Positions 857 to 40,900 of a DNA stretch of 64,000 bases are shown here, piece after piece. The stretch's first letter is position 1. The number at the start of each line of letters is the position of its first letter. Source of the stretch: Lactifluus volemus (Eukaryota > Basidiomycota > Agaricomycetes > Russulales > Russulaceae). The stretch lies in the NCBI GenBank assembly GCA_022376515.1, contig WTXI01000116.1, positions 48,648 through 112,647 of the forward strand, read 5' to 3'. A model generated the notes under the pieces. It did not search any database, was not told the DNA's origin, and was given only the letters and a program-made list of their open reading frames with translations. The translations under genes were made by a program, and so were the position numbers.

Positions 857-858
857 GT

Positions 859-1436
859 TGTCAAGGCTCAGAGGGGCCTTGGCGCACGACGGTGCTTATG
901 ACAGTGATCGAGGAGGACTGAGCGTGGCACTAAGCCTCAGTACGACGAGGATCACTCGAGTTCTTCCCTTGGCTTTACTATAGAGGAGAGCGTCGCGCTG
1001 ACGGATGCACTCTACTGTATTGTCAAAGAAGAGGTCAAGGGTAATCACAAGACGAGACTAAGTCTTGGATGACAACGGTCAGGAGGTCTGACTTGAGGGG
1101 ACAGGAAGGGAAGAGGGTTCAACTAGTCTGATTGCAGACGAAGCGAAGTCTAAGGAGACAAGCTACAACAGACCGGTTTATATACTCCTAGAGTGTGATG
1201 CTGAGTCATAGAGTCCCAGGCATGTCACGGTGTGACATGCCTCCTAAGTAATATATCGTAGATCGGATGGAGAAACTATGGAGATCTACGGAGATACCTC
1301 GAAAGATCCAGAGATCTGTATCGTACACGGAAAGATCCGAAGATCCGTATCGTAGATTACCTCGGAATAAAGCGAAAAAGATACCCACAGTCACGTGGGG
1401 CTAATACATAAGCAGATCACGTGCCAAACCGTAACA
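859..1436 (-). repeat. 3' LTR of element 1 (578 bp)
   Basis: Matches 9450-10027 over its full length. Ends TG...CA. Contains the same promoter elements as the 5' copy: TATA at 1177-1184 and the putative RNA 5' end AGACTTCGCTT (complement of 1141-1151), here still perfectly complementary to the PBS. An inverted repeat CATGTCAC-GGT-GTGACATG lies at 1221-1239, upstream of the TATA box. Confidence 0.93.
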
Positions 1437-1473: not shown

Positions 1474-3081
1474 TCAGTAACTGCGTCGACGCATGATGAG
1501 GGAGGTCGGGCACTCCCATACGGGGTTGCGGACGCCTTTGGGCTCCGCGAAGTCGTGGTCGCTGGGGCAAAAGCAGTCTTCCGCCGTGCACAGGAAGTGC
1601 GGCCATGGGCAATGGCACGAGAGATGTCCGCCTGCACAGTACAGGCAGCGGACATCAACGGGGCAGAGGTCGGCCGAATGGTCGGGCCGACTGTTATTGC
1701 AGCGGTGGCAATACGGGTAGACAGGAGGCGGAGGCGGGTAAGTCGGGATCCAGGTGGTGGCTAGAGGGGCGGAAAACTGCTGAGGGAAATACCACGCGCC
1801 GTGTGCAAGAGGCGCGTATTCGGTGGCACAAACGCCGTGCCAAACGCCTGCGTGTTCCCGTCGGAGTCCACGAGCGCCACCATCTGCAGGAGCCTTGCCC
1901 TTCGCGGTGGCGGCGTGGGGCTCCTCGCCGGTATAAATGGGGTATTGAGGGGGTTCAGCAACATACCCTCCTGCGGGTCGGGGGTAAACGGCGTCCAATG
2001 TAACTGACGCATGCGGGTTGGTGGGCGAGGGGTGGCCGGAGTAGGAGTCCTGACGTGATAGCTGGGACTCCTCGCCGGCGGCGGGCTGGTCAGATCGATG
2101 ACCGTCACTGTTGGGGGCGGGGGTGTTGACCCGCGTGAGGGGCCGCTCGTCGAGTGGCTTGGAGCGCGAGGAGGGTGACGGAACGGGAGAGACTTCTTGG
2201 CCCGCTGCCTCAAGTAGCGGGGCTGACTGGGTTCTCCATTCGTCGACGCGGTGGAAGGCGTCGAGCGCGAGGGAAGCGGGCTCTTCCTCCGAATTGGGAG
2301 GCGCGACGGGCGAGGCATAATCGTCGTCGGAGGGTTCGGGGGACCACTCGCCGTAAGCAATAGGTCGAGTGGGCTGAGGGGCCCAGAGTACAGGTACGGG
2401 TGCGAGGGGCCTGGTGGACGGATCTGGTATTGGGAGGGGTGACGGTGAGGCGGCATCTTCAACGTCGACGTCGAGTCGTTCAGGTTGAAAGTCTTCAGGG
2501 AGGAGGCCGGCAAGGACAATGGCAGCGTAGACGTCATCGGGTAATTCGATGGAGGCAATGTCGAGATCGAGGATGAAGTCTCTGACGGGGGAGAAGTCCA
2601 TAGAGGAGAGGGATGGCGATGGTAGGGGGTCAAGAGTGGGGTTTATATCTCTCCCGACTTCCAGAGTTCTCATGGCTTCGGGGTTTGCCTCGTGGAATTC
2701 TCGGATTAATTCCGGGGAATTGACGTTCTCGACCGGCTCCCACGTGTTATGTGCTGTGGAATACCCCTTCCACTTTAGGAGATATTGCAGTTTCCTGTAT
2801 CGCCTTCTTGATCCGAGGATCTCTTCGACTTCGTATTCCTGATGATCGTCGACCAGATCTGGGGGTGGCTCGGTGTGATTTCGGCCATGTTCGGCTGTTT
2901 CCGAATAGGGGGTCAGAAGGGATGCATGGAAGACGTTGTGGATCTTCCATTGGGGTGGCAAATCCAATTTGTACACATAGGGCGAGATCACTTTGATGAC
3001 GCGGAAAGGTCCGAAGCGTTTCAGTCGAAGCTTCTTTGTCGGATAAGGCAGGTTTAAATTCGTCCCCTCGAGTAGGACCAT
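1474..3081 (-). CDS. Element 1 pol, 3' segment: integrase C-terminus, chromodomain, Cys/His module
   Basis: Open frame of 535 codons, the 3' part of pol after the last in-frame stop. It begins MVLLEGTNLNLPYP and HNVFHASLLTPY, the conserved tail of chromovirus integrases. A chromodomain follows at about residues 83-140 (EYEVEEILGS, LLKWKGY, TWEPVENV), thought to steer integration to heterochromatin. Then comes a long Pro/Ser-rich linker, and a C-terminal Cys/His module near residues 455-510 (CHRC, DH, C, CLYC, GH, C, PH, C, C, DH) that matches element 2. The linker overlaps a conserved ORF in the +1 frame (1761-2633). Confidence 0.88.
   Translation of the reverse strand: MVLLEGTNLNLPYPTKKLRLKRFGPFRVIKVISPYVYKLDLPPQWKIHNVFHASLLTPYSETAEHGRNHTEPPPDLVDDHQEYEVEEILGSRRRYRKLQYLLKWKGYSTAHNTWEPVENVNSPELIREFHEANPEAMRTLEVGRDINPTLDPLPSPSLSSMDFSPVRDFILDLDIASIELPDDVYAAIVLAGLLPEDFQPERLDVDVEDAASPSPLPIPDPSTRPLAPVPVLWAPQPTRPIAYGEWSPEPSDDDYASPVAPPNSEEEPASLALDAFHRVDEWRTQSAPLLEAAGQEVSPVPSPSSRSKPLDERPLTRVNTPAPNSDGHRSDQPAAGEESQLSRQDSYSGHPSPTNPHASVTLDAVYPRPAGGYVAEPPQYPIYTGEEPHAATAKGKAPADGGARGLRREHAGVWHGVCATEYAPLAHGAWYFPQQFSAPLATTWIPTYPPPPPVYPYCHRCNNSRPDHSADLCPVDVRCLYCAGGHLSCHCPWPHFLCTAEDCFCPSDHDFAEPKGVRNPVWECPTSLIMRRRSY
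1761..2633 (-). CDS. Overprinted ORF in the 3' end of element 1 pol (+1 frame)
   Basis: 290-codon open frame in the +1 phase relative to the chromodomain frame. Product is rich in Pro, Ser, Arg and Thr. It aligns without gaps at two places to the ORF at 12008-12550 of element 2, in the same relative phase. Residues 188-199 share RSPSYHxRTPxP. Residues 248-284 share LLQ, L, S, G, Q, GTAxV and RL (13 of 37 identical by my count). The region homologous to the element 2 ORF starts near residue 139 (RYLRQR, base 2219). In the same bases the pol frame is hardly conserved. Function unknown. It could be translated by frameshift, internal start or splicing. See findings. Confidence 0.7.
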   Translation of the reverse strand: MTPYHRHPSPLWTSPPSETSSSISTLPPSNYPMTSTLPLSLPASSLKTFNLNDSTSTLKMPPHRHPSQYQIRPPGPSHPYLYSGPLSPLDLLLTASGPPNPPTTIMPRPSRLPIRRKSPLPSRSTPSTASTNGEPSQPRYLRQRAKKSLPFRHPPRAPSHSTSGPSRGSTPPPPTVTVIDLTSPPPARSPSYHVRTPTPATPRPPTRMRQLHWTPFTPDPQEGMLLNPLNTPFIPARSPTPPPRRARLLQMVALVDSDGNTQAFGTAFVPPNTRLLHTARGISLSSFPPL

Positions 3082-6000
3082 CTGTCCCTCGGTGAAAGGT
3101 CGGAAGTGGCGCTGCCCCTTCCTTCATTCGTGATATTTCCTTGTCATGTCCTGTGCCTGTCGAATAGCCTTTTGCGCTCGTTCCCGCAGTCCTCGGAGGT
3201 AAGTGGATCGTTCTTCCAGGGCCGGTAAGGCCGAGTTCGTCATCTGTTGCTCTTGCGCGTGGGGTGAAGCCCATAAGTAATTCGAAGGGGGTCTTTCCGG
3301 TAGTGGAGCTGGGCCAGGAGTTGTGCACGAATTGGGCAAGAGGGAGCCATCGTGCCCAGTCATTTTGCTGGAAGTTGCCGTAGATTCAAAGGTACTGTTC
3401 TAGCCATTGATTTGTTCTTTCTGATTGGCCGTCTGTCTGGGGGTGGTATGCCGTACTAATGTTTTGGTTTATTTTGAGTCATTTACAGAGGTCTGTTGTC
3501 CATTTCGAGGTAAACCTCGTGTCGCGATCCGATATGACGGTCTTGGGAATCCCATAATGTGGGAAGACGTGTTGAGCGTAGAGTGCGGCTACTCCTTCAG
3601 AGTCGATCTTCTGCGTACAAGGGAGGAAGACTGCCGCCTTTGTGCAGTCGTGGTCCGTAATTGTCAGGATAGAGTCGTAACCTTGTGATGGTGGGAGGTC
3701 TACAATTAGGTCGAGTGCAATCGTTTCAAATGGCAGTGCATTGGGTTTCACAGTAATCGGGTAAATAGGAACCTTGGGTCGGACCGTATTGCTCTTTGTG
3801 GTCTGACAGGTGGCGCATCCCTTGACATATCGCCGGACAAAGGTTTTCATGTTGGGCCACCAATAGCCTTGTTCTACTGCATGTAGGGTTTTCGAAATTC
3901 CGGGGTGTCCAGCGGTGACATGGTCATGATGTGCCGCGATCACCTCCCTCCTCAGGGCGTTGTCTGCCACGACAACGATCTTCCCAGCGCGAGTCCACAA
4001 GCCATGTGGACTCCGCTCGAGTCGAAAGGGAGCTGACCAGCCAGCAATGTCCGTGGGCGCTGCCTCCTGGGCGCGGAGTAGCTTGTCCTCCCAGGGGTCC
4101 AGGGGTGCAAGGGAAAGTGTAGCGACAGACTCAAATAGCTCGCTGGGGAGAACGATGACACCCTTATTGTCCAGGGCCCCAGTATCAAAGTCTGGGCGAC
4201 GGGAGAGAGGGTCCGCCCTCATTGACTTGCCAGGTTTGTGGATAAGGGAGAGGTTAAATTCCCCCAGCAGGGGAATGTAGCGGGCAACGCGCCGGTTAAT
4301 ATCCCGAGGGTGGCGATAATACTGTAGGTTCTTATGGTCGGTGTAGACTTTTACTGGGTGACGCGCCCCTAGCAACAAGTGGCGCCAACGTTTGAGGGCA
4401 TGAATAATAGTGAGGAGTTCCCGGTCGTGGACGTCATAGCCCCGTTCCGGTGGGGACAGGGCATGGGAGTAGTAACTGATAGGGCGCGGGAGGCCGGTAG
4501 GAGTGCGTTGGAAGAGGATGGCTCCAAGGGCAAATTGGGAGGCGTCCACCTCCACTTCAAAAGGTCGGTCGTGGTCTGGGCGGTTGAGGGCCATGTCGCG
4601 CTCCACCAGGCTAATGAGGCGTTTCACAGCCGCCCGTTGTTCGTCTCCCCAACGAAAGGGGACGTCCTTCTTCAGGAGGTCAGTCAGGGGTCGCGCAATC
4701 TCCGCAAAACCCGGAATGAAGGGGCGGTGATAGCCAAATACCCCCAGGGTGCTTCGCACGCCAGAGACGGTGCTTTGCTCGGTCGGCCATTCTAGTAGTC
4801 CTTGTCTCTTCGTCGGGTCCAGGGAGATCTTGCCATCCTCGACTACAATGCCAAGGTAGTGAACGCGTGGTTGCTCAAAGTGACATTTTGCTGCCTTTAG
4901 AAAGAAGGACTCGTCTTCGAAGCGCTGCAGCACCTGGTGGACTATGGTCCGGTGTAGGGCCACGTCAGCCGCGTTCCGATTTGGGGTAGCAATGAGGAAG
5001 TCGTCCATATATATGTGGATAAAGTCAGGGTAGGCGTTTAGTAAGTCGCGGAAAACGGTGTGCATGCAGCGTTGGAAGGTCCCAGGTGCATTTCGCAGGC
5101 CAAAAGGCATGACATTTGGGAGGTATAAGCCAAATGGGGTGATAAAGGCGGCCTTCCACCGATCCTCAGCCTTGATCCGGATATTGTTGTACCCCCAACG
5201 AATGTCGAGGGTGGTGAATAGTTGTTTTCCTTCTAACTGTTCCAGAATCGTCTCGATGCGCGGAAGAGGGTACACGTCTGGTATAGTCCATTCATTGACT
5301 TTGCGGTAGTCTTGGACCGGGCGGAGGGAGCCGTCTTGTTTCTTCACAAAAAAGAATGGGGTCGCCCAGGGCGAGTCCCCCTTTTCGATGTAGCCCAAGC
5401 GTTCGTTTTCATCGATCCACTTGCGCACCGCTTCCATCTCTGCTGGACTAAGAGGGTAGGTTTTACTTTTTATAGTGGTGGGGGCTCCTTCCTTTAGTTT
5501 GATTTCATGGTCATCTAGCCGAGCAGGGGGAAAACGATGGGACAGTTCCTCAGAGAAAACCTTCCAGTGGCGCTTGTATTCGTGAGGCAGGGAAGGGTCC
5601 CCCTGCTGTCGTGGTGCCTTAATGGCCCATTCCGTGGCCACCGAGGTCTTGTTTATGTTTGTAGGGGGTATGACGCGTGGCTCCGATATCTTGGAGACCC
5701 CGTTAGGCCACTCTGGGAAGTATTCCGCCCACTTCTCTAATTCCGGGTGTCTGGCCTCCAGGTCCTTTTTCTGACTTGCAGTTAGTTTGTCGTCTTGCAG
5801 CCGGAGCTTTAGGTGGGCCAACATTTTTCGGCTATTTTCCCGTTTGATGTCCGCTTCTCTGAGTCGTCGTCTAGCATGGTCTTCCACACCGAGGAAGCGG
5901 GCTCTGGTGACTGCACGAGTGGCCACTTCGATAGGGAGGTCGTCCCACGTCATGTTCGTCCAGTTGATTTTTGGGTTGAAGGCCTTAAGCCAGGTAAAAC

Positions 6001-9448: not shown

Positions 9449-9449
9449 T

Positions 9450-10027
9450 TGTCAAGGCTCAGAGGGGCCTTGGCGCACGACGGTGCTTATGACAGTGATC
9501 GAGGAGGACTGAGCGTGGCACTAAGCCTCAGTACGACGAGAATCACTCGAGTTCTTCCCTTGGCTTTACTATAGAGGAGAGCGTCGCGCTGACGGATGCA
9601 CTCTACTGTATTGTCAAAGAAGAGGTCAAGGGTAATCACAAGACGAGACTAAGTCTTGGATGACAACGGTCAGGAGGTCTGACTTGAGGGGACAGGAAGG
9701 GAAGAGGGTTTAGCTAGTCTGATTGCAGACGAAGTGAAGTCTAAGGAGACAAGCTACAACAGACCGGTTTATATACTCCTAGAGTGTGATGCTGAGTCAT
9801 AGAGTCCCAGGCATGTCACGGTGTGACATGCCTCCTAAGTAATATATCGTAGATCGGACAGAGAAACTATGGAGATCTACGGAGATACCTCGAAAGATCC
9901 AGAGATCTGTATCGTACACGGAAAGATCCGAAGATCCGTATCGTAGATTACCTCGGAATAAAGCGAAAAAGATACCCACAGTCACGTGGGGCTAATACAT
10001 AAGCAGATCACGTGCCAAACCGTAACA
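9450..10027 (-). repeat. 5' LTR of element 1 (578 bp)
   Basis: Promoter-bearing LTR for the (-) transcript; same length as 859-1436. Differences from the 3' LTR that I can see: near 9541, two near 9709-9712, at 9735 in the start-site motif, and two near 9858-9859. All are transitions. Confidence 0.93.
9732..9775 (-). promoter_or_regulatory. Core promoter of element 1: TATA box and predicted RNA start
   Basis: On the - strand TATATAAA (9768-9775) is followed after 25 nt by AGACTTCACTT (9742-9732), the predicted RNA 5' end. The spacing is the same as in element 2. Confidence 0.55.
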
Positions 10028-10683: not shown

Positions 10684-11620
10684 TGTCTCGGTTCGCAGGG
10701 ACCGTGGCTCGAAGTGAGCGTCGTTCTGGTTGGCTATTTGCTGTGGTGAGTCGGACAAGACTAGCAACACCAAATAGTCGATTCTAGCACGCGCAGACAA
10801 GGTCCTAGAGGAGTAGACTTGACTGTGCGAACTCTTGGTGTCTGTATCGCGCGAGGCGGTTAATACGGGCCGGCGCACGCGATGGTCGGAGTTACCGTTC
10901 CCAAAAGGGATAGACGGTGGCAGATGGGTTAATGACAATGTGTAGGTTCAACCGCAACACGGGCGCGAGTGTAATTGGAATGTAAGAGATGCTCGCCTTC
11001 CAAGGACACTCGTGAGAGGTTGAACTAAGGTTCGAGGGCGGACGCGGGGTGAGAAGTGGGGACTACTTCTCACAGCGCGTTCGTATTAGGGTTCAGGCGT
11101 CTGGGGACTTGTTGCACGGAAATGGAACAAATTCACAGATGTCTGATCGTGGCGCGAAGTACCTGGATCAAGGTACGAAGAGGGGATTCACAAGAAGAGG
11201 GGAGGAGATGCGATGCGAGTGTGAACAGGAGACAATGAACTGCGATTCTAGACGAAGCTGAAGCTGGGGCTTTAGCTCGTCTACAGGGCCCTATTTATGC
11301 GTACAGAGGGCCAGCCAACTATCCTACAAAGGTCACAGTACAGTAGCGAAGTCAAGACTATTGACTAAGGACCTGAGTCAGTTCTGATGACTCAAGAACT
11401 GACTCAGTGCGTCTGACTCAAGATCTGAGTCAAGAACGCTGACTCAAGATTTGAGTCATCATCCCTGAGTCAAATACACGTCCAAAACGGCGATGCACAG
11501 CCCCTAGAAATCGCACAGAGGGGGCTGGCCAAGGAAAGGGATCCTAGGTCATAACACAAGTCGAAAAATAGACAGAAAATAGCAAGAGGAATGGGCCGGG
11601 CGGCCCGCATAACCGTAACA
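10684..11620 (-). repeat. 3' LTR of element 2 (937 bp)
   Basis: TGTCTCGG...CCGTAACA on the + strand, matching 18220-19156. Carries the TATA box (11290-11300) and the TGASTCA cluster (11374-11472). Confidence 0.95.
11374..11472. promoter_or_regulatory. Eight TGA(C/G)TCA sites in the 3' LTR
   Basis: Same cluster as 18910-19008 in the 5' LTR; see that entry. Confidence 0.75.
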
Positions 11621-11657: not shown

Positions 11658-14600
11658 TTAGTCACCCCTGTCCATGGATTCCCAGTCAATGTCATCCCAA
11701 AGCGCCTCACCTGCATCAACGTCATCGGCGTCATACTCATCCCAATAATGAGCAACGGGCTGCAACTCCGTGGCTCTGACAGGACAGCTCCTCCCATAGT
11801 ACTGGTGGTCAGGGAAGACCCGGCACCTATGGACAGTGCAACGCGTATGGGGGTGGTGACAGTCATGGGAGTAATGCCCTCTCTTTTGGCAGTAGAGGCA
11901 CTCCCTCCACAAGGGGCAATCTTCGTACCTGTGGTCCACCCCATCCTTGTTGCACTTACCACAGTAGAAGGAGCGCTTGCCCTTCCTCTTGCGCTTGCCT
12001 GTGATTTTCAGAGGGCTGACTCCGGAATCACCACCAGACGGCCCCCCATGCGCCGAAGACGCGACGACGAGTGGACGTAGGCCGTCCCCATCTGCTGCAC
12101 GTACCCCCTGGAGTTGATGAGCACTGTCACCTGCAGAAGGTTGGGCCCAGCTGAAGACCTTCCAGGGATCGTAAGGGGATTCGGATCGCAGCGCGTGGGG
12201 GTCTCCAGCGACATGACTTCTGGCTGGAACCTCATGTCCGCTGCTAGCGTCTCCAGGGCTTCCTGGATAGGCGAGAGTTGGGGAGGCGGCGTTGGACCTG
12301 GGAGAGGAGATGGGGTCCTCGGATGGTACGAGGGGCTGCGGCGAGGCTCTTGGCGAGGCGAGCGGGTGGTCCTCCTGTACGGTGGAGGCGCGGATCTGGG
12401 CTGGTTCTGCTGGGGTGTCCTCGGCAAGGGACGCCTCTGAGAAGGACCACTCTCCCCCCTCACAGACCGCGAGGGAGTTGAACGACGAGTCGAGGAGTTG
12501 GAGGTAGTCCTCCTCTGAGTTGGGGTATTGGAACGCAAGTTGTAAGGCATTACTCATCAAGGAGGAGGTAGTGGGGGTGATGATGGTGCGAATACGTCGT
12601 TTCTTCTTGGCTTTTATCCTCCCCCCTCCTATCGCATTGGGGTTGCGCTGATAGAACTCCTTAATGAGCTCCGGAGCTTTCACATTGCCAGCGGGTTCCC
12701 AACTATCATGAGCGGGTGAATATCCCTTCCAATGAAGGAGATACTCAAGCTTTTCTGCCTTCCCTTTCTTGCGCGCATCAATGATCTGTTCCACCTCATA
12801 TTCCGGTTCGCCTTCCATCAGATCAGGTGGCGGTTCCATGAAATTGCGCCCATGCTCCTCCGTCTCCTTGTAAGGTGTTAACAAGGATGCATGGAAGACG
12901 TTGTGAATGCGCCAGTGTGGGGGAAGCTGAAGGCGGTACACCACAGGGGAAATGACGTCAATGATGGGGAATGGACCATATCTCTTTGGTCCCAACTTTG
13001 CGGACGGATACATTGTCTTTAGGTTTGTTCCCTCCAACAACACTTGTTGTCCTTTTTCGAATGGGTAGAAGTGCCTTTGACCCTTCTTTCTCTGGCGCCT
13101 TTTTAGCCACAGTTCCTGCGCTTTTCTGATAGCATCCTGGGCGCGCTCCCTAGCCTCCTTAAGCCACATCTGTCTTTGATGTAACGCTGGGATATTCGTG
13201 CTTTTCCCGGAGGGGTGGATGATTGGGTTTGCGCCCCACAAGAGCTCACAGGGAGCCTTCCCTGTGCTCGCATTTGGCCAGGAGTTGTGAACAAATTGGG
13301 CAAGAGGAAGAAGGTTTGCCCAGTCGTCTTGTTGGCTGCTTCCATAGATCCGCAAATACTGCTCCACCCACTGATTAGCGCGTTCTGATTGTCCGTCAGT
13401 CTGCGGATGATAAGCAGAGCTGATGTTCTGTGTGATTCCTAGCAGTTCACACATCTGGCGGGTGAAGTGTGCAGTAAAACGGGGATCTCTGTCTGAGATG
13501 ACGTGGTGGGGGCAGCCAAAGAGAGGGAAGATGTGTTCCACGTAGAGCCGGGCCACTTCTTCTGCGTCAATTGTCTTCTGACAGGGCAAGAAGAAGGCTG
13601 CCTTCGAGCAATCGTGGTCCACCACTGTGAGGATCGAGTCATATCCCTTTGAGACTGGGAGATCGGTGATGAGGTCAAGGGAAATGGTCTGGAAGGGGAT
13701 TGCCTTTGGCTCAACAGTGATTGGCATCAATGGTGGTTTAGGTTTCACAGTGTTGGGTTTCGTCATTTGGCAAGTTGCACATCCTTTGACGTAGTTCTGG
13801 ACGAACTGCCGCATCGTCGGCCACCAGTAGTCCTCGGACACCTTCTGAAGCGTCGTGGCAATGCCTGGGTGCCCGGCCAAGGCATGGTCATGGTACTCAT
13901 GTAAGATTTGTCGCTTCAGATCCTCCTGGTCCGCGACCACAGGTCTTCCCTGATGCACCCAGTGGTGATTTACTGAGTCCAGTGGGTAGGAGCGATGCAG
14001 CTCTGCGAAATAGCTCGGTGTGCGTGCTTGCCAATCCCAAACCTGTTGTTCGAGACTGCTGACCTCCGCTGCCCGCGCGAAGAGTTTGTCAGGCAGGACA
14101 AGGGTGTTTTCGTTGTCATGTTTTCCTTCGTCCACCCCTGGTGGCCTGGACAATGCGTCAGCCTTGTTCAGCTTGCCTGGGCGGTGCACTAGTTTGTAAT
14201 TGTAGTCTGCAAGGTCACTGAGGTACCTTGCTACGCGTCGGTTGATTCTTTGGGGTTGCCGGTAATATCGAAGATTATTATGATCGGTGTGCACAATGGC
14301 AGTGAAGGGAGAGGAGAGGAACAAGTGTCTCCATCGTCGCAAACCCCGAATCACCGCCAAGAGCTCTCTATCATGGACGTCATACCCTCTCTCAGCTTCG
14401 CTCAATGTCTGGGAGTGGTAGCCCACTGGACAGAGCCTCTGTTTGTCATTTCGTTGGTAGAGGATGGCCCCAGTGGCATACTGGGACGCATCCACCTCCA
14501 TCTCGAAGGGGCGGTCATAGTCAGGTCTCTGGAGGACAGGGTCGGACTCTATGATCTGGAGGAGTGCATCCAAGGCTTTGGTGCACTCGTCCGTCCACTT

Positions 14601-16118
14601 GAATGGTCGTCCCTTCTTCAGTAAGGCAGTGAGTGGCGCCGCGAGGTGTGCAAAGTGGGGAATGAACGGTCTCTGATACCCCAACACACCAAGCGTGCTC
14701 CGGACCTCCTTTACTGAAGACAAGGTTCGAGGCCATTGAGATAGTCCTTTCCTCTTTGTGGGGTCGATGCGGATGGTCCCGTGTTCCACACGGATGCCAA
14801 GGTAGTCAATGCTGGTCTGCTCGAACTTGCACTTCGACAGTTTGAGGAAGAAGGATTCTTGGCGGAACATCTCGAGGATTTCTCGGACTATCCTCCTATG
14901 TTCCTCCACGTCTCCTCCTGTGGCCACCAAGACATCATCCATGTACACAAACACCTTCCCTGGGTAACGGTTCATGATCTTAGCAAAGACCCGATCCATG
15001 CAACGCTGAAAGGTGGCTGGAGAGTTCTGGAGGCCGAAGAGCATCACCTTTGGTTGGTACAGGCCAAAGGGAGTCTTAAACGCAGCCTTCCATCGATCCT
15101 CAGGGCGAATCTGGATGTTATGATAGCCCCAACGAATGTCCAGTGCCGTGAAGAGGGTGCGTCCGTGCAACGCTTCCAGAATTTGCTCAATGCGAGGGAT
15201 GGGGTACACATCTCGAATCGTCCAACTGTTCACTTCCCTATAGTCCTGGATGGGTCGGAGACTCCCATCTCTTTTCTTTATAAAGAACCAAGGGGTCGAC
15301 CAGGGAGAGTTGGACTTTTCGATGAATCCCCACTGCTCATTCTCTTTCAAGAACTTCTGGGTCGCTTCCTTCTCCTCCCTCGTGAGGGCATAGACTTTAC
15401 AATTGATGGAAGCTGGGGCGTCCTCCTTCAAGACAATGGCGTGATCCTCTGGTCGTGAAGGTGGGAAACGATGGGATTTTTCTTCGTCAAAGACGTCCGC
15501 ATAGTCTCGGTATTGGGGTGGTAGCACCTCGTGCTTTTCCCCACTGGCTACCTGCTCTTGGTGCGCCTTTATGGCCCATTCCTGGGCCACATTGGTGCGA
15601 TCAATGCGTGCTGGTTCCTTCTCCCTGTCCTTGTATATCTGACGAGGGCGCTGGAACTTCCTCCACTTGGTTTCGATCCGTACTCCCCCGTTCTGTACTT
15701 CTCCCTTGGTCCAATCGATGCGAGGATTGAACTCTGAGAGCCAAGGGTGCCCCAAGAGGACACGATCTTTGCCAAGATTGGTGACATAGAACCGCTGGAG
15801 AGTGTCTTTGTCCCCCACGACACAGCGAAGAACACAATACTCCGTAAGTGTCCCAGCCTGGTTCTGGGTTCCATCCACATTGTAGACGTAGCGGGGGTGA
15901 GGGAGTTTATGAGTGCTGAGTCCCCATCGGCGGACTGTGCGCTGATCAAGGAAGTTTTCCGTGGCTCCACTGTCGACTAAGGCGACATCTGCGACCGTTT
16001 TGTGGACATTTGAAAACGAAATGGGCAAATTCAAAGCATTGGCATTGGCATAGCTAATGTACATTCGTTTCAGTCCTAAGGCTCGTACCCAGGTCGCGCG
16101 GCACGAGCTCTTCAAAAA
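11658..16118 (-). CDS. Element 2 pol: protease, RT, RNase H, integrase, chromodomain, Cys/His module
   Basis: Open over 1,485 codons from 16115, entered from gag by a -1 overlap. Residues: aspartic protease DSG 48-50; RT YMDD 391-394; RNase H EVDAS 540-544; integrase HHCC finger (H739/H742, H744/H749, C779, C782); integrase core D814, D875, E911 with 35 residues between the last two (DD35E); chromodomain about 1103-1158 (YEVEQIIDARKK, LLHWKGY, SWEP). Then a low-complexity linker 1160-1380 overlapped by a conserved +1 ORF, and a Cys/His module 1385-1445 with CX2CX6HX4C, a canonical CX2CX4HX4C (CLYCQKRGHYSHDC) and a third C/H group. All catalytic residues are present. A module beyond the chromodomain is unusual for this family. 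Confidence 0.95.
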   Translation of the reverse strand, partial: FLKSSCRATWVRALGLKRMYISYANANALNLPISFSNVHKTVADVALVDSGATENFLDQRTVRRWGLSTHKLPHPRYVYNVDGTQNQAGTLTEYCVLRCVVGDKDTLQRFYVTNLGKDRVLLGHPWLSEFNPRIDWTKGEVQNGGVRIETKWRKFQRPRQIYKDREKEPARIDRTNVAQEWAIKAHQEQVASGEKHEVLPPQYRDYADVFDEEKSHRFPPSRPEDHAIVLKEDAPASINCKVYALTREEKEATQKFLKENEQWGFIEKSNSPWSTPWFFIKKRDGSLRPIQDYREVNSWTIRDVYPIPRIEQILEALHGRTLFTALDIRWGYHNIQIRPEDRWKAAFKTPFGLYQPKVMLFGLQNSPATFQRCMDRVFAKIMNRYPGKVFVYMDDVLVATGGDVEEHRRIVREILEMFRQESFFLKLSKCKFEQTSIDYLGIRVEHGTIRIDPTKRKGLSQWPRTLSSVKEVRSTLGVLGYQRPFIPHFAHLAAPLTALLKKGRPFKWTDECTKALDALLQIIESDPVLQRPDYDRPFEMEVDASQYATGAILYQRNDKQRLCPVGYHSQTLSEAERGYDVHDRELLAVIRGLRRWRHLFLSSPFTAIVHTDHNNLRYYRQPQRINRRVARYLSDLADYNYKLVHRPGKLNKADALSRPPGVDEGKHDNENTLVLPDKLFARAAEVSSLEQQVWDWQARTPSYFAELHRSYPLDSVNHHWVHQGRPVVADQEDLKRQILHEYHDHALAGHPGIATTLQKVSEDYWWPTMRQFVQNYVKGCATCQMTKPNTVKPKPPLMPITVEPKAIPFQTISLDLITDLPVSKGYDSILTVVDHDCSKAAFFLPCQKTIDAEEVARLYVEHIFPLFGCPHHVISDRDPRFTAHFTRQMCELLGITQNISSAYHPQTDGQSERANQWVEQYLRIYGSSQQDDWANLLPLAQFVHNSWPNASTGKAPCELLWGANPIIHPSGKSTNIPALHQRQMWLKEARERAQDAIRKAQELWLKRRQRKKGQRHFYPFEKGQQVLLEGTNLKTMYPSAKLGPKRYGPFPIIDVISPVVYRLQLPPHWRIHNVFHASLLTPYKETEEHGRNFMEPPPDLMEGEPEYEVEQIIDARKKGKAEKLEYLLHWKGYSPAHDSWEPAGNVKAPELIKEFYQRNPNAIGGGRIKAKKKRRIRTIITPTTSSLMSNALQLAFQYPNSEEDYLQLLDSSFNSLAVCEGGEWSFSEASLAEDTPAEPAQIRASTVQEDHPLASPRASPQPLVPSEDPISSPRSNAASPTLAYPGSPGDASSGHEVPARSHVAGDPHALRSESPYDPWKVFSWAQPSAGDSAHQLQGVRAADGDGLRPLVVASSAHGGPSGGDSGVSPLKITGKRKRKGKRSFYCGKCNKDGVDHRYEDCPLWRECLYCQKRGHYSHDCHHPHTRCTVHRCRVFPDHQYYGRSCPVRATELQPVAHYWDEYDADDVDAGEALWDDIDWESMDRGD
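12008..12550 (-). CDS. Overprinted ORF in the 3' end of element 2 pol (+1 frame)
   Basis: 180-codon ORF with a true ATG at 12550, starting MPYNLRSNTP, in the +1 phase of pol, ending with TGA just before the Cys/His module. Arg/Pro/Ser-rich N-terminal half; a more ordered C-terminal part (LLQVTVLINS, GTAYV, SRLRR). It matches the ORF at 1761-2633 of element 1 in the same phase. Over the motif RSPSYHxRTPxP the two elements differ mostly at synonymous third positions of this frame, while pol codons for the same bases give different residues. That points to selection on this frame. Function unknown; basic and Pro-rich character would fit nucleic-acid or protein binding. Confidence 0.75.
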   Translation of the reverse strand: MPYNLRSNTPTQRRTTSNSSTRRSTPSRSVRGESGPSQRRPLPRTPQQNQPRSAPPPYRRTTRSPRQEPRRSPSYHPRTPSPLPGPTPPPQLSPIQEALETLAADMRFQPEVMSLETPTRCDPNPLTIPGRSSAGPNLLQVTVLINSRGYVQQMGTAYVHSSSRLRRMGGRLVVIPESAL

Positions 16119-18031
16119 TCCTGGGGCGCAGAGTCGGTGGAGTCAACCATATCCTTGATAAAGCGTTCCTTGTCGTCGTCAGACAACTTCATAAGTCCGT
16201 CCATGAGCTGGTCGCGTGTGATTTCTTTCTTCTCTTCTTCAACGGCCCGCACTGCAGCGGGGCGCTGTGCAGGCTTGCTGCCCTTGTTCTGGTTCTTTTT
16301 CTTCTCAGGACACATGCGGCTCACATGGCCCTGTCGTCAACAGGTGAAGCAGCGACCTTCCGCCACTAGTTTCTTCTTTTCTTCAGGGGTAGGCCCCCCT
16401 GTAGAGATGGCGTCAACATCCATGGCGTCAGAGGGTCGGGGTTTCGTGTGCCTGTCCTGCTGGTACCTCCCTAGCGCCGCAGCAAGGCGTTGGCGGAAGT
16501 TTTGGCCTGGCTTGTCTCCAGAGGTGGCTCTGGCTTCGATCCACCTCCCTTGGCGCCTCAGGGCCGCGTCTTGCCATCCCTTCAGAGTATCAGGTAGGGT
16601 GGCCTCAAAATCAATGATCTTTTCACGGAGGACTCGCTTCAAGCCATCCTTGAATCGAAGGAGGGTCCCTTGCTCATTTGGACCCCACTTGGCGAGAGCG
16701 ATTAGTGTATTGAAATCATTGATGTACGTTTTGAGGTCCTCCCCTTGCATCTGCAGGGTGAGCAGGCGCCCCAATGCCTCCTCTCTGGCCACAGTGTTCT
16801 GGAACTGAGCTTTGAACGCATTGTCAAAGTCCGTCCAGACCTGTTCATTGTTTGGGTCAATGGCCAGAAGGTGGTTTGGGTACTGCCGCCACATTGCTAC
16901 CCCATTCATCAAAGGTTGGATGATTCCATCGACCCACTGATCGACTGCTTTGCCTCGGATCCTTCCCACACAGGTGAGGACCCGCATGTAGGGGCTGCTT
17001 ATGGAGGGGTGGTCCCGATTCATCTCCCAGAAGACTGTGAAGGTGCGGCGGAAGCGCGCGAGGTCGTCGCGATCTCCATTGAAAATTTCAGGGATCGTGC
17101 CAAAAAGGGCCGATGAGTGGGGCGGTTGGCCCCCTGCTGGTTGTCCTCCTGCAGGAGCGCCTCCCCCACCACCGCCTCCTCCGCCTCCACCTCCGCCTCC
17201 ACCTCCACCTCCACCGCCGCCTCCACTTCCTCCCGGCTGTGCCCCAGCCGGAGGTCCTCCTCCGGGTTGCCCAGAGGAGCTGAATCCTGTGATGCCAGCT
17301 AGTGCTGCTGGTGCGGTAATGGCAGTGCTGACTGCAGCCGACCTGATGAACGCACTACCACTAGGCACACTAGGATGAGGTTGTGGAGCGGGGGAGAGAG
17401 CGGCTGGAAACATGGTGGGGTCCACCAACATTCCACTGGTTGGGTCTGTCACCATTGACACACTGACGTCGGAGTATGGTGAGTCCATTTGCTTTTGTAC
17501 TGGGGGCACTTGCAACGTTGAGGTTGGTTCAAGCTGCTGATGAATTCCTGGGGGAACACTGGTTAAAGGGGGCTGTGCGGCTTGATAGACCGGTTCAAAT
17601 AACTGTCCACTAGGTGAAAGTGCTTCGGGTCGTTCTGGGGTACTTCCAGATCCTGAGCCTGCCGGTGTTAAGGACAGCGCGTGTACTGGATAGTCTGGGT
17701 GCTGTGGATCACTTGGTTTCCACCAGCCGAGTTCAAATCGTGCGATGTCGTCGTCTGTGACGTATCTCCCTCTCTCTGTCGCGTAGGTCTGCGGTTTATC
17801 GAACCACTCGACGTGATACCACTTCTGGTTGATAAACTCGATGGGTCCGTGTGGATCTCCTTTGTCAAAAGCCCAATAGGCACTTTGCTTGGGGTTTTCT
17901 TGACGTTCTATCCAAAAGGCGTGCCCAACTACGTGGTCTGGGAGGTCTGGTGTGTCTCTGGTTTCGACTCTGGTGAGCCCCCCCTTCTCTGAGGTCCAAC
18001 CAACAGTTATGGAAGCCGTTTTGTCGATCAA
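16112..18031 (-). pseudogene. Element 2 gag (one in-frame TGA in the zinc knuckle)
   Basis: Starts at 18031 and is open for 564 codons to a TGA at 16337-16339; the same frame goes on for 75 more codons to 16112. N-terminal domain shared with element 1 (EFIN..WY...GWW..D..HP-Y). A poly-Gly tract sits in the middle, then capsid (PEIFNGDRDDLARFRRTF) and nucleocapsid with a CCHC knuckle in which the residue after the second Cys is the TGA: CFTC-stop-RQGHVSRMC. Gly is common there (GGA to TGA is one change). Either a recent nonsense change, a sequencing error, or a readthrough site. Pol starts in the -1 frame at the gag end. Confidence 0.85.
17161..17230 (-). repeat. GGN trinucleotide tract (poly-Gly in gag)
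   Basis: Run of CCN triplets on the + strand coding about 23 consecutive Gly on the - strand in the gag linker. Likely length-variable. The + strand Pro-rich frame is a by-product. Confidence 0.85.
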
Positions 18032-18218: not shown

Positions 18219-18790
18219 ATGTCTCGGTTCGCAGGGACCGTGGCTCGAAGTGAGCGTCGTTCTGGTTGGCTATTTGCTGTGGTGAGTCGGACAAGACTAG
18301 CAACACCAAATAGTCGATTCTAGCACGCGCAGACAAGGTCCTAGAGGAGTAGACTTGACTGTGCGAACTCTTGGTGTCTGTATCGCGCGAGGCGGTTAAT
18401 ACGGGCCGGCGCACGCGATGGTCGGAGTTACCGTTCCCAAAAGGGATAGACGGTGGCAGATGGGTTAATGACAATGTGTAGGTTCAACCGCAACACGGGC
18501 GCGAGTGTAATTGGAATGTAAGAGATGCTCGCCTTCCAAGGACACTCGTGAGAGGTTGAACTAAGGTTCGAGGGCGGACGCGGGGTGAGAAGTGGGGACT
18601 ACTTCTCACAGCGCGTTCGTATTAGGGTTCAGGCGTCTGGGGACTTGTTGCACGGAAATGGAACAAATTCACAGATGTCTGATCGTGGCGCGAAGTACCT
18701 GGATCAAGGTACGAAGAGGGGATTCACAAGAAGAGGGGAGGAGATGCGATGCGAGTGTGAACAGGAGACAATGAACTGCGATTCTAGACG

Positions 18791-29081: not shown

Positions 29082-32000
29082 AATGTGTTGCCCGTTCGGT
29101 GAAAATGCAACGCATCTGACGTAACTCTTGTGTCCAGTAAATGGTCCCGCTATGACCTCTCCTGTTGCGGCATCCCACACGCAAATCGTGCGATCGGCCG
29201 AGGCGGATGCCATGCGTTTCCCGTCAGGCGAGAATGCGACAGAGAAGACTTCTTTGGTGTGTTCAGTAAACGGTCCCGCTACAATTTCTCCCGTCGTAGC
29301 ATCCCACACCCGAATCGTGCAATCTCTCGAAGCTGATGCGATGCGTTGCCCATTTGGCGAGAATACAACAGAGTTGACTGGTCCGTCATGTGCTTGAATA
29401 GTCATTTCCAATGCTGGCCAATTAGGCAACCGTCCGCGTTTCAAAAACAATGTGTGAGGAAAGAGGCGAAGATGGTGCTCAGTGATGTGGGAAGAGGATG
29501 GCGCGAAAGGTAGAGCAGATATATAAATGTGGGGGACACTTCTTGATATCGCCATCCCGAAATACCGCACAAAAGCGAATGCATCATCCACAAATGCTAA
29601 CAGATTCTGAACCTCTGATTGGAATGATCGCTGTAATTAGACCCAATAGTTACAACATGTCCTATAACATGATAAGAGCCGCCTACCTTCTGCTGATCAG
29701 ACCGCAACCATGTGTTCAGGGATGACAATGCTCGTGATGCAAGACCGACACTGCTCTTGATGCTAAGCACTTCCAGCCAAAAGAAAAACCTTGTCTCGAA
29801 CAGCAATCGGAGTTGTGGAACAAGGTCCTGTTCAACACCAAGATGTTCTAAATGATCCCCCCAAAAAACGCAGCCATATGATAGAGCAGGCGGGACATAT
29901 TTGGCAATTCGAGATTCCAAATCTGGCACGTCCCTGTTGGCAACGTATGACGATTCCAGTTCACAAATGTTGAATTTGAGGTCATTCAGCATTAATCCAA
30001 GACAGGAATGTGCAAGCTGACGGTGAGCCCTGCCAAGGTCGATGTGAAATACCCCACTCTTCTCATCGGCCAGGAAGTCACGAAATGAGGTGTGGAGAGG
30101 GATGATCGGGAGGGTATCGTCGGATGAGGTCACGTTACTGAGAAGTGAGCCAAGGTGACGGAGCATCTCAATAACGCATTCAGAATCCTCAGGGTCAGGG
30201 TCTTCGGGGTCATCCTGGGGTGCATGTCGTCGCAGAGTAGTCAATGAACGGATAGAAAGCGGAACGAGAGCAGCAAAAAGCTGCCCCATCACGGAACGAA
30301 ATAGGGTCTGTGCTGCAACTGGCTTGAAGTACCCTTCCAGAACTTCTCCATATAGCTGGTCCAAAGGATCTTGCCCATCCCGACCTCGAGAGTGCCCCAA
30401 CAGACGCTGTATCACCTGCTTCCTGCTAAACCCAAAGCTAGGAGGAGGATAGTTTATTAGCCCTGAAGCAACGGCTGCCCACTGAAACAACCCTTCCGCT
30501 GCCTTTGCGAGTTCAACACCATGTCGTTCGAACAGGTTCAAAGGGAGTTCGCTCCGGAGATATAATCCAATATCTTGCTCCGTCTTTGCAGCCAGTTTGT
30601 GATCGTCCATATAGAGGGTGCGTACCGACATCGCATTACAGAACGCACGTTCGATTCCGTTCTCCGGCCTCGAGGTGATGAGGATACGGAAATTGGATGG
30701 GAACTCGAACAGATGTTGAGCCAGAAACTTGTGCAACCCGTTTGGACCGATCACATCACCACTCTCATCCAATGCATCGATCACGACAAGAATTGGGTCG
30801 CTAGACTGAACGTTCTTGACTGGTTCGAGGAGAAGGGATTCGAAGAGTGTGCGATAATGTCGAGTATTACGAAGAGACGGATCATTCTTCAGTACCTTCC
30901 CGAGCGCTAATTTGAACGGAGGATAGCGATCGGACAGATCGCGAGCGAGCGTCGTGAATAGTTGATAAGCTTCATCTTTCGATCCCTCTTTCCGCAGAAA
31001 CGCCAAGTAAGTGCAGAGGCACTTATTCTGGAATAGACGTGCGACCTCATGAACGATTGAAGACTTTCCTGTGCCTGCTTGGCCGAGGAGCACGAGCCCA
31101 CGCTGAGATTCAGGACTCTCGACCCACTTGACGATATGATCCAAAAAGTCTTCGCGTGTGCCCGGAAGACATCGCTTCCCATCGCCATATCGCCAACCTC
31201 CTTTATAAGGTAATTCTCTGATTTTTGCGTCCAATTCTTTGTGCCCCTCGTCAAGAAGATTGTCCGACAGTCGTATTACTATTAGGACTACGCACCAGCT
31301 TCTAGCACGGCAATCCCAGTGACGACGGCAGTACGCGCGAGGAAATTATCTCGCAGTCGAGCGAGACTTGTGCGGTACTGATCAACTTTCGCATCAACTT
31401 GGCTCACGACATTCTTCAAAGTCCGCTTTCCTGAAAATCGAATGTCCATGATGGATGGCCAATAAGAGAGGCCAAGATGACGTACCGACTCGCACATTCT
31501 CCGCATACGATATGATAAATTTGGCACATTCCGAGACGCACTCCAGCATCTCATCCAGGATTCTTGCCTGAGTAGACGCTGGTTCCATGTTCTTCAAGGC
31601 ATCCGCCTCCCTTGCGAATTCAAACCCATCCTGTATAGCCTTGAGTAGTGTTTGGACGTTGTCGTCACGCTGAAGCTGGAGTAGTAAAGTCTGGCAATTG
31701 ATGAGATCCATTGAACGCTCCCTGTCCTCCGCCAAGGCACGGAGACGCACCTCGGGAATCTTTGAGAGCAGCTTCCATGCCAGCTGTGCATGTGGGAGCA
31801 ACTGAAGCGCAAAAGCTAGCTCAGCGAAACAACAGATGCGCAAAATCGATATGAGACATACATCTGCGATTGGACCGATAGCGTCGAGTACTTGCTTGAT
31901 AACACCAATGGCACCCTTCCATGCCATCATTGTATCCATAGCGTTCATGGCTTCCTCGGCACGGTCAACAGCACGTGAGATCTCCGTGTGGCCAGCTTGT

Positions 32001-37979: not shown

Positions 37980-40900
37980 CTATTCAGACGAGCTGTGAAT
38001 GTATACCATAGCCCAATTTAATCCATACACAAATCTTGAGAGATCAACCTCCGTTCTATCTTTGCCAGCAACCCAGACTGTGTTAGCTCTATGAAGGTAT
38101 GGCCGGTGAATGGGAGGAATCCACAAAAGGAGTTCTTCATCTTCCCCATACATCCATCCATCACTATGGATTGGGAACTTCTCCATAAAGTGATCTTTAT
38201 CAATATCTTCTGCTCTGCGTTTTCCTATATGAATCATGTGATCTCGTAAGGTCGAGGTGATAGGCTGCCCATCCAAAGTGGACGCACCAGAGTTAGTCGA
38301 TTGGGTGAGTCCGGTAGACGAGCCCACAATATCCTGTCCTGTTGTGGCATCCCACATGCGGATCGTGCAATCTCCCGAGGCAGAAACAATCCGCTGCCCA
38401 TGTGGTGAGAATGCAACCGAGTTGACCCATTCAGTGTGTCCAATAAACGGGCCTGCCACAGCCACACCTGTAGCAGGATCCCACAAGCGAATCGTGCGAT
38501 CGTCCGAGGCCGATGCAATGTGCCGCCCGTTCGGTGAGAATGCAACAGAGGTGACAGCATCGGCGTGTCCAGTAAATGGACCGACTACTGATTGTCCTGT
38601 CACAGAATCCCACACACAGATCGTGCGATCGAACGAGGCTGAGGCAATTCGCTGCCCGTCCGGTGAAAATGCGACAGATGCGACCAACTGAGTGTGACCA
38701 TTGAACGGGCCCGCTACGACCTCCCCTGTCACAGCATCCCATACTCGAATCGTGCAGTCCTCTGAGGCAGAGGCGATGCGCTTCCCGTCCGGCGAGAACG
38801 CAACAGAGAGGACCGCATCAGTGTGTCCAGTACACGGGCCCACTACAACCTCTCCCGTCATGGCATCCCACACGCGAACCGTGCGATCTCCCGAGGCCGA
38901 CGCGAGGCGTTGTCCATCTGGCGAGAATGCAACAGAGTAGACTGCATCGGTATGTCGAGTAAATGGGCCCGCTATAACATCTCCTGTCGCGGGATCCCAC
39001 ACGCGAATCGTGCGATCGAACGAGGCCGAGACAATCCGCTGCCCTTCAGGCGAAAAAACAACAAATTCGACCCAAGCGGTGTGACCAGTAAACGGACCTG
39101 CTATGGCCTCGCCTGTTGCGGCATCCCACACACAAATTGTGCAATCTGCAGAGGCCGAGGCTATCCGTTGCCCATCTGGTGAGATTGCAACAGAAAAGAT
39201 CGATTGGGTATGTCCGGTAAACGAGCCACCGGCCACTCCTTTTCTGGGATGCCACACGCAAACCGTGCGATCATCCGAGGCCGAGGCAATGCGCTGCCCG
39301 TCAGGTGAGACTGAAATAGAAAATATGGAAGCTGTGTGTCCAGTAAATGGGCCTGCTACTATCTGACCTGTTGCGGAATCCCACACGCAAATCGTGCGAT
39401 CTCCCGAGGCTGAGGTGATGCGTTTCCCATCCGGCGAGAATGCGATAGAGTAGATAGCATCGTCGTGTCCAGTAATTGGGCTAGCTACCACCATTCCTGT
39501 TGCGGTATCCCACACACGAATCGTGCGATCGTCAGAGGCCGAAGCGACATGCTTCCCGTCCGGTGAGAATGCAACACACCTAACCGGATCGGTGTGTTCA
39601 GTATACGGGCTCGCTAGGACCTCTCCGGTTGGGGCATCCCAAATGCGAATCGTGCAATCTTGAGAGGCAGAGGCGATACGTTTCCCGTCTGGTGAGAATG
39701 TAACAAAGAAGACCGCGCCGACGTGTCCAGTAAACGGGCCTGCTACGACTTCTCCAGTTGCGGCATCCCAAATACGAATTGTGCGATCTTCTGAGCCTGA
39801 GGCGATGTGTTGCCCGTTTGGTGAAAATGCAACGCATCTGACCCAATCCGTGTGTCGAGTAAATGGTACCGCTACGACCTCTCCTGTTGCGGCATCCCAA
39901 ACGCAAATCGTGCAATCGGCCGAGGCCGATGCGATTCGTTTCCCGTCGGGCGAGAATGCGACAGACAAGACAAAATTGGTGTGTCCAGTAAACGGCCCCG
40001 CTACAACTTCCCCCGTTGTAGCATCCCACACCCGAATCGTGCAATCTCGCGAGCCTGATGCGATCCGCTGCCCATCTGGGGAGAATACAACAGAGTCGAC
40101 TGGTTCATCATGTGCTTGAATCGTCATTTCCAGTGCTGGCCAATCAGACAACCGTCCGCGTCTCAAAGAAAATGTGTGGGGGAATAGGTGAAGGTGGTGC
40201 TCGACGACACGGGAAGAAGATGGCGCAAACGGGAGGGCAGATATATATATATGCGGGACGCTTCTTGATATAGCCATTCCGAAATATCGCACAAACGCGA
40301 ACGTATCATCCACTAATGCCAACAGATTTTCAACCTCTGATTGGAATGATTGCTGAAATTGTACCCAATAGTTATTACATGTCCTATAACATGATTAGAG
40401 GCGCCCACCTTCTGCTGATCAGACCGCAACCATGTGATCAGAGATGCCAATGCTCGTGATCCAAGACCGACACTGTTCTTGATGCTGAGCACCTCCAGCC
40501 AAAAGAGAAACCTTGTCTCGAACAGCGATCGAAGTTTTGGAAACAGATCCCGTTCAATATCAAGAAGTTCTAAATGATCCCCCCAAAAAATGCAGCCATA
40601 CGATAGAGCAGGTGGAACATATTTGGCAATTCGAGATTCGAGATCTGGCACGTCCCTGTTGGCAACGTATGACGATTCGAATTTGCAAATGTTGAACTTG
40701 AGGCCATTCAGCATTAATCCAAGACAGGAATGTGCCAGCTGACAGTGAGCCTTGCCAAGGTCGATGTGGAATACCCCACTCTTCTCATTGGCCAGGAAGT
40801 CACGAAATGAGGTGTGGAGAGGGACGATTGGGAGGGTATCGTCGGATGAGGTCACATTACTGAGAAGTGAGCCAAGGTGACGGAGCATCTCAACGACGCA

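Follow-up and report, generated by a model that had tools for sequence, protein, structure and literature searches.

A second reading frame within the 3' end of pol is under selection as a protein in two families of fungal chromoviruses

Can the 3' end of a retrotransposon pol gene also encode a second, unrelated protein? The question is raised by two chromodomain Ty3/gypsy elements, E1 and E2, that lie on the minus strand within the window, the whole stretch of 64,000 nucleotides analysed here. Both have the pol domain order, the C-terminal chromodomain and the flanking LTRs of chromoviruses. The E2 domains (protease, RT, RNase H, integrase, chromodomain, linker and Cys/His-rich end) are all in one frame, and those of E1 are in two pieces in different frames. 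The relevant features are as follows.

11658..16142, minus strand: E2 pol frame, stop to stop, 1494 codons
12645..12800, minus strand: E2 chromodomain (Pfam PF00385), pol residues 1115-1166
12008..12550, minus strand: E2 +1 frame, candidate overprinted gene encoding 180 aa before its stop, from the ATG at 12550-12548 (MPYNLRS)
11784..11963, minus strand: C-terminal part of E2 pol, Cys/His-rich and zinc-finger-like, which begins directly past the +1 stop
10684..10983, no strand assigned: E2 3' LTR, a 300-nt repeat 100% identical to 18220-18519; the true LTR ends may differ
18220..18519, no strand assigned: E2 5' LTR, 300-nt repeat
1474..3123, minus strand: E1 3' pol frame, with SH3-like domain, chromodomain, linker and Cys/His-rich end
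2689..2835, minus strand: E1 chromodomain, spanning residues 97-145 in the 549-aa pol frame
1761..2456, minus strand: E1 +1 frame, candidate overprinted gene encoding 231 aa before its stop, from the ATG at 2456-2454; up to 6 aa longer in other copies
1510..1710, minus strand: E1 Cys/His-rich C-terminal stretch of pol
858..1157, no strand assigned: E1 3' LTR, a 300-nt repeat 99% identical to 9449-9748
9449..9748, no strand assigned: E1 5' LTR, 300-nt repeat

A previous sequence-only reading proposed that each element carries an accessory gene overprinted on this part of pol, and the second long frame is indeed present in both, in each case in the +1 phase relative to pol. In E2 it is open for 180 aa from the predicted start, MPYNLRS. 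For E1, that reading placed the gene at 1761-2633; the +1 frame is open there (1761-2642 from stop to stop, 293 aa), but the start is an invariant ATG at 2456 rather than at 2633. The ATGs are present in 32/32 aligned E2 rows (one place counted twice) and 28/28 E1 rows.

Comparison of the two +1 products bore out the shared motif RSPSYHxRTPxP, in which 10 of 12 residues match. Across the 13 residues of this first block, 10 are identical in the +1 frame, 2 in pol and 3 in the third frame, and different codons are used at 8 of the 10 identical residues. A second block contains the 13 identities counted earlier, over 34 residues as cut here rather than 37; over the same 34 residues pol has 9 identities and the third frame 11. 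When profiles were compared with hhalign, the E1 and E2 products aligned over 96 columns with 39% identity (E 2.5e-8), and a search of the genome with the E1 product also reached three E2-type places (best 34% identity, E 2.9e-5). Judged on these alignments, the two +1 proteins are homologous.

An open frame in a linker rich in Pro, Ser and Thr could be fortuitous, and openness by itself is weak evidence, as it is only mildly unlikely. When pol codons were shuffled synonymously, a +1 frame as long as that observed arose with P = 0.0245 for E2 and, for E1, with P = 0.0005 from stop to stop or 0.0065 from near the ATG; for a further family, E4, P was 0.23. In the genome, the E2 query returned 96 rows, with 49 covering the whole query and 46 of these free of stops, and the corresponding figures for the E1 query were 53, 24 and 22. 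Outside the window copy, 25 of 27 E1 rows are longer than it within the gene by 15 or 18 bases, multiples of three; the exceptions among loci L032-L057 and L059 are L059 (14) and L047 (17). The pattern of substitution is what decides the matter.

This pattern was determined in a 62.4 Mb genome (628 contigs). All DNA comparisons are between paralogous copies within that one genome, and relatives elsewhere are represented by seven JGI proteins. From the loci fetched, 32 E2 rows (31 without one place that was fetched twice) and 28 E1 rows were aligned. The window's own places (L003 and L031), two loci broken into pieces (L058 and L060) and E2 or E1 matches shorter than 450 bases were removed before counting, as was the second piece that matched in each of L028 and L030. 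L074, which is the same place as L024, was removed from the counts of distinct changes, and L081, which is short, was excluded from the stop count; L040 and L041, E1 rows of identical sequence, come from different places and were retained. A shared change is a distinct change that two or more copies carry, counted on the background of an existing copy, and the expectation for each class was set by the rate of pol-silent changes outside the +1 gene.

In E2, mean diversity at pol positions 1, 2 and 3 is.021,.020 and.126 before the gene,.097,.014 and.028 inside it and.035,.042 and.115 after it. The E1 values are.045,.021 and.162 before,.156,.052 and.108 inside (here the whole stop-to-stop +1 frame) and.099,.089 and.262 after. 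In 45-base steps, the switch of variation from pol position 3 to position 1, which is the wobble base of the +1 frame, follows the +1 ATG and reverses at the +1 stop; in E2 it comes about 60 bases late, and the start of the gene does not yet have the shift. Shared changes at positions 1 and 3 number 57:9 inside and 30:137 outside the gene in E2 (Fisher p = 1.1e-22), and 126:64 and 49:181 in E1 (Fisher p = 5e-21). Between 2642 and 2457, upstream of the E1 ATG, the ratio is 43:65 (27:51 for shared changes), a mild tilt towards position 1 relative to the sequence outside (Fisher p = 0.011 for all changes, 0.023 for shared). As changes in this upstream part still peak at pol position 3, the constrained E1 gene starts at 2456.

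Shared changes that are silent in pol and alter the +1 protein occur at 0.06 of expectation inside the gene and 0.64 outside in E2, and at 0.29 and 0.76 in E1. With singletons included, which takes in changes from dead copies, the inside values are 0.39 (E2) and 0.46 (E1), against 1.04 and 1.00 outside. Changes creating a +1 stop number 1 where 10.2 are expected in E2 and 0 where 14.4 are expected in E1, at the pol-silent rate, though many of these would also alter pol. The +1 frame has no stop other than its own in 30/31 E2 rows and in 26/28 E1 rows (E1 from coordinate 805). Purifying selection on the +1 product, which had been suggested from two elements, therefore holds across many copies of both families; within this genome the +1 frame is neither closed nor evolving at a dN/dS near 1 over a constrained pol. 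The selection on particular codon positions, whose limits are the ATG region and the stop, leaves a frame open by chance with a negligible probability, as do the E1/E2 homology in the +1 frame and the ordinary pol pattern at the same place in the linker of another family, E3, in which no +1 gene was detected. On the substitution pattern we reject it.

The reciprocal class, shared changes that are silent in the +1 frame and alter pol, stands at 0.51 (E2) and 0.56 (E1) of expectation inside the gene. The E2 value is close to the 0.64 for pol-silent changes outside, that is, near neutral, as it would be if ribosomes passed from pol into the +1 frame and back, making a single hybrid protein and leaving the linker unread in the pol frame. 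This is very improbable, because the +1 frame has its own stop before pol resumes and because pol stops are avoided across the overlap: changes that create a pol stop and are silent in the +1 frame number 3 among shared changes, where 10.3 are expected (P = 0.008), and 7 among all changes, where 16.0 are expected (P = 0.010). At least one pol-phase stop is found in the counted overlap in 2/31 E2 rows and 5/28 E1 rows, some via frameshifts, so pol is not intact in every copy. Past the +1 stop, variation at position 3 is ordinary or high again in the Cys/His-rich stretch. Pol is kept open through the overlap and continues into its Cys/His-rich end. Both frames are open, with the second under purifying selection at the protein level, as in an overlapping gene. 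We regard it as almost certain that the +1 frame is under such selection from its ATG to its stop, while constraint on the overlapped pol residues is nearly absent in E2 and weak in E1, and pol stops are avoided.

Two other sources of constraint could be imagined. An antisense gene with its wobble base on pol position 1 would likewise move variation to that position, and an antisense frame is open over parts of the zone. That frame is interrupted inside the zone, by two stops in E2 (including the window copy) and five in E1, and across E1 and E2 shared changes silent only in the antisense frame number 3 against 16.0 expected, a larger deficit than for those silent only in the +1 frame (14 against 22.6). 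Both points disfavour an antisense gene so strongly that we give it next to no weight. Constraint on the RNA or DNA itself, such as a structure or a splice or packaging signal, is also highly unlikely as the general explanation, since one base in three varies freely in E1 and E2, precisely in step with the +1 codons, a pattern that a structure would not produce. It would suit E4, in which variation at pol position 3 is reduced and that at positions 1 and 2 is low too, although suppression there runs from near the ATG to the stop. It would also suit 2404-2448 (E1 coordinates 675-720), just past the E1 +1 ATG, where all three positions vary little over 45 bases in 28 rows. This stretch is possibly a nucleic-acid signal in addition to encoding two proteins.

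We conclude, with a probability of roughly 85% for the model as a whole, that the +1 frame would be an overprinted accessory gene situated in the flexible linker between the pol chromodomain and the Cys/His-rich end. Translation of its product is likely to begin at its own AUG. The invariant ATG and, in E2, an in-frame stop at -6, two codons before it (31/31 rows with letters there), favour this over the alternative that the +1 frame is read as a fusion to Pol, via +1 frameshifting or the removal of a small intron close to where the chromodomain ends. A fusion would account for the +1 phase being shared by all three families, and the open +1 frames of E1 and E4 extend for some distance beyond the ATG on its upstream side. 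Start codons generally have a purine at -3, and the E4 ATG lacks one in 6/6 rows. Because of the preceding stop, any fusion junction in E2 would be confined to the few bases before the ATG, and in E1 and E4 suppression begins near the ATG rather than at the preceding stop. We therefore consider a fusion unlikely, though less so than the other alternatives. Four JGI proteins are related to the E1/E2 gene, all of them gene predictions on short contigs. Two, P0001 (180 aa) and P0003 (237 aa), start at the same two ATGs, that of P0003 corresponding to the E1 ATG at 2456; P0002 (131 aa) and P0004 (204 aa) start elsewhere.

An AUG thousands of bases downstream is out of reach of scanning on a full-length RNA, so initiation at the gene's own AUG on a shorter mRNA would be the likeliest route. 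By analogy with the env and ORF3 genes of other LTR elements, there is an even chance that a shorter, probably spliced 3' mRNA carries the +1 gene. An AG dinucleotide is found at -4 in 31/31 E2 rows with letters, at -38 in 28/28 E1 rows and at -29 in 6/6 E4 rows, and no splice acceptor common to the families was found in these rows. Nor did inspection by eye of the 40 leader sites listed for each family (40 of 62 and 40 of 41 candidates scored) reveal spliced retrocopies, with the leader joined near the +1 gene, which speaks neither for nor against splicing.

The +1 products in the window are very basic (pI 11.8 and 11.9) and rich in Pro, Ser, Thr and Arg. An AF2 model (mean pLDDT 50.3) is of low confidence and mostly disordered, apart from four strands in a C-terminal segment at about 60; a second model, likewise weak, has a mean pLDDT of 44.6. 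The predicted protein would have an Arg/Pro/Ser-rich disordered N-terminus and a small C-terminal beta segment, and its composition suggests, tentatively, a putative nucleic-acid- or chromatin-associated accessory factor. It matched no Pfam family at E <= 10 and has no long hydrophobic run by eye, giving no similarity to a viral envelope protein. IMG/VR yielded 29 pattern stretches and no relative, and a sequence search of the PDB returned two p53 chains (best E 0.28), which we took as chance. Residues 55-58 of the E2 protein are PPPY and the E1 protein includes VIDLT; these presumably resemble short binding motifs, of the late-domain and SUMO-interacting kinds, respectively.

Related families were examined for a gene at the same place. 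In E4 there is one candidate.

L078:1148-1738, plus strand: E4 +1 gene, 197 aa; ATG in 6/6 rows

The E4 query returned 88 rows, 38 of them over the whole query and 33 of these free of stops, and two of the six rows aligned, L076 and L077, carry +1 stops. Pol-silent changes with an effect on the +1 product occur at 1.00 of expectation outside the gene, 0.98 just upstream and 0.33 inside, and changes that alter pol are as rare inside as elsewhere. Three JGI proteins are of the E4 type: P0005 and P0006, both 197 aa, match over their full length, and P0007 matches over 15%. The E4 gene ends at the same place as the E1/E2 gene and in the same phase, and no homology between the proteins was detected by hhalign (E 0.24 over 14 columns). 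With the limited power of six rows, E4 seems to have a similar but unrelated +1 gene with both frames constrained; the suppression may instead reflect constraint at the RNA level.

No +1 gene was detected in E3 (10 rows), where pol position 3 is the most variable throughout. The E3 linker has slightly more changes at position 1 than its flanks (positions 1 and 3, 68:270 vs 36:234; p = 0.03, shared p = 0.29). In the three rows of E5, too, none was detected, and the +1 frame is closed by stops over much of the linker. In most steps of E5 it is again position 3 that varies most; between 900 and 1170, one step of three is reversed and one is tied, and with three rows the evidence from E5 is weak. 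An E5 +1 frame of up to 197 aa that runs into the Cys/His region is attributed to chance, since pol variation from 1170 on is highest at position 3. The Cys/His-rich, zinc-finger-like pol end past the chromodomain is common to all five families, E1 to E5 (seen in the window at 11784-11963 and 1510-1710, and also in L064, L068, L071, L073, L074 and L078); Pfam gave no match to it in E1 or E2.

A tree built from nine pol fragments places E1 and E5 as sisters and E4 at a distance. On this placement, the E1/E2 gene was probably lost in E5, a separate gain being the alternative. We suggest, again tentatively, that the linker past the chromodomain could be a nursery for new genes, where overprinting in the same phase, before the same Cys/His end, would have arisen at least twice (in E1/E2 and in E4) and been lost once (in E5). 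The products would be regulatory accessory proteins, similar in role to the ones that complex retroviruses encode, in a lineage otherwise credited with gag and pol alone.

Genes that start inside the 3' end of pol and are expressed from a spliced mRNA are familiar from the env of insect gypsy-type errantiviruses and from retroviral accessory genes. These overlap pol only in part, and env is a membrane glycoprotein, whereas the gene described here is nested in pol and its predicted product is a soluble-looking basic protein. Paramyxovirus C is a viral overprinted accessory protein, a second protein in another frame; unlike it, the +1 gene resides in an endogenous retrotransposon lineage of a fungus. 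For rotifer LTR retrotransposons, the ORF3s are reported to be separate units whose expression is from spliced messages (PMC5408684), and aORFs are placed upstream or downstream of gag-pol, those of the plant Retand elements being mostly antisense and located between pol and the 3' LTR (PMC11963269). Like these plant and bdelloid rotifer genes, as far as those accounts describe them, the +1 gene is additional to gag and pol and is kept in most copies and across families. It differs in being in the sense orientation and nested inside the pol frame rather than outside gag and pol. For fungal and related Gypsy elements, the parts of PMC2864245 consulted report one or two ORFs, gag and pol, in most full-length elements and describe no overlapping ORF, and a figure legend includes an 'add. 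ORF of unknown function' (PMC2864245), a likeness to E1 and E2 that extends, as far as the legend goes, to the presence of an extra ORF.

A limited search of the literature, with sources consulted in part, found no overprinted gene inside a chromovirus pol, and a gene within a gene, as known from viruses, appears to be new in the pol of a fungal chromovirus. As the +1 gene is more constrained than the pol it overlaps, annotation that allows one frame per strand misses coding content of the element. With dozens of paralogous copies in one genome, selection can be measured in both frames, which makes this a tractable case of overprinting, and one may ask by what means an element of this kind produces a third protein. 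Elsewhere in the window, the minus strand from 24784 to 52185 contains repeated gene units with NACHT (NPHP3_N) and WD40 repeats, for example at 29597-31234, 37980-41956 and 48175-52185, which we take to resemble the NLR-like NACHT-WD40 genes of fungi.
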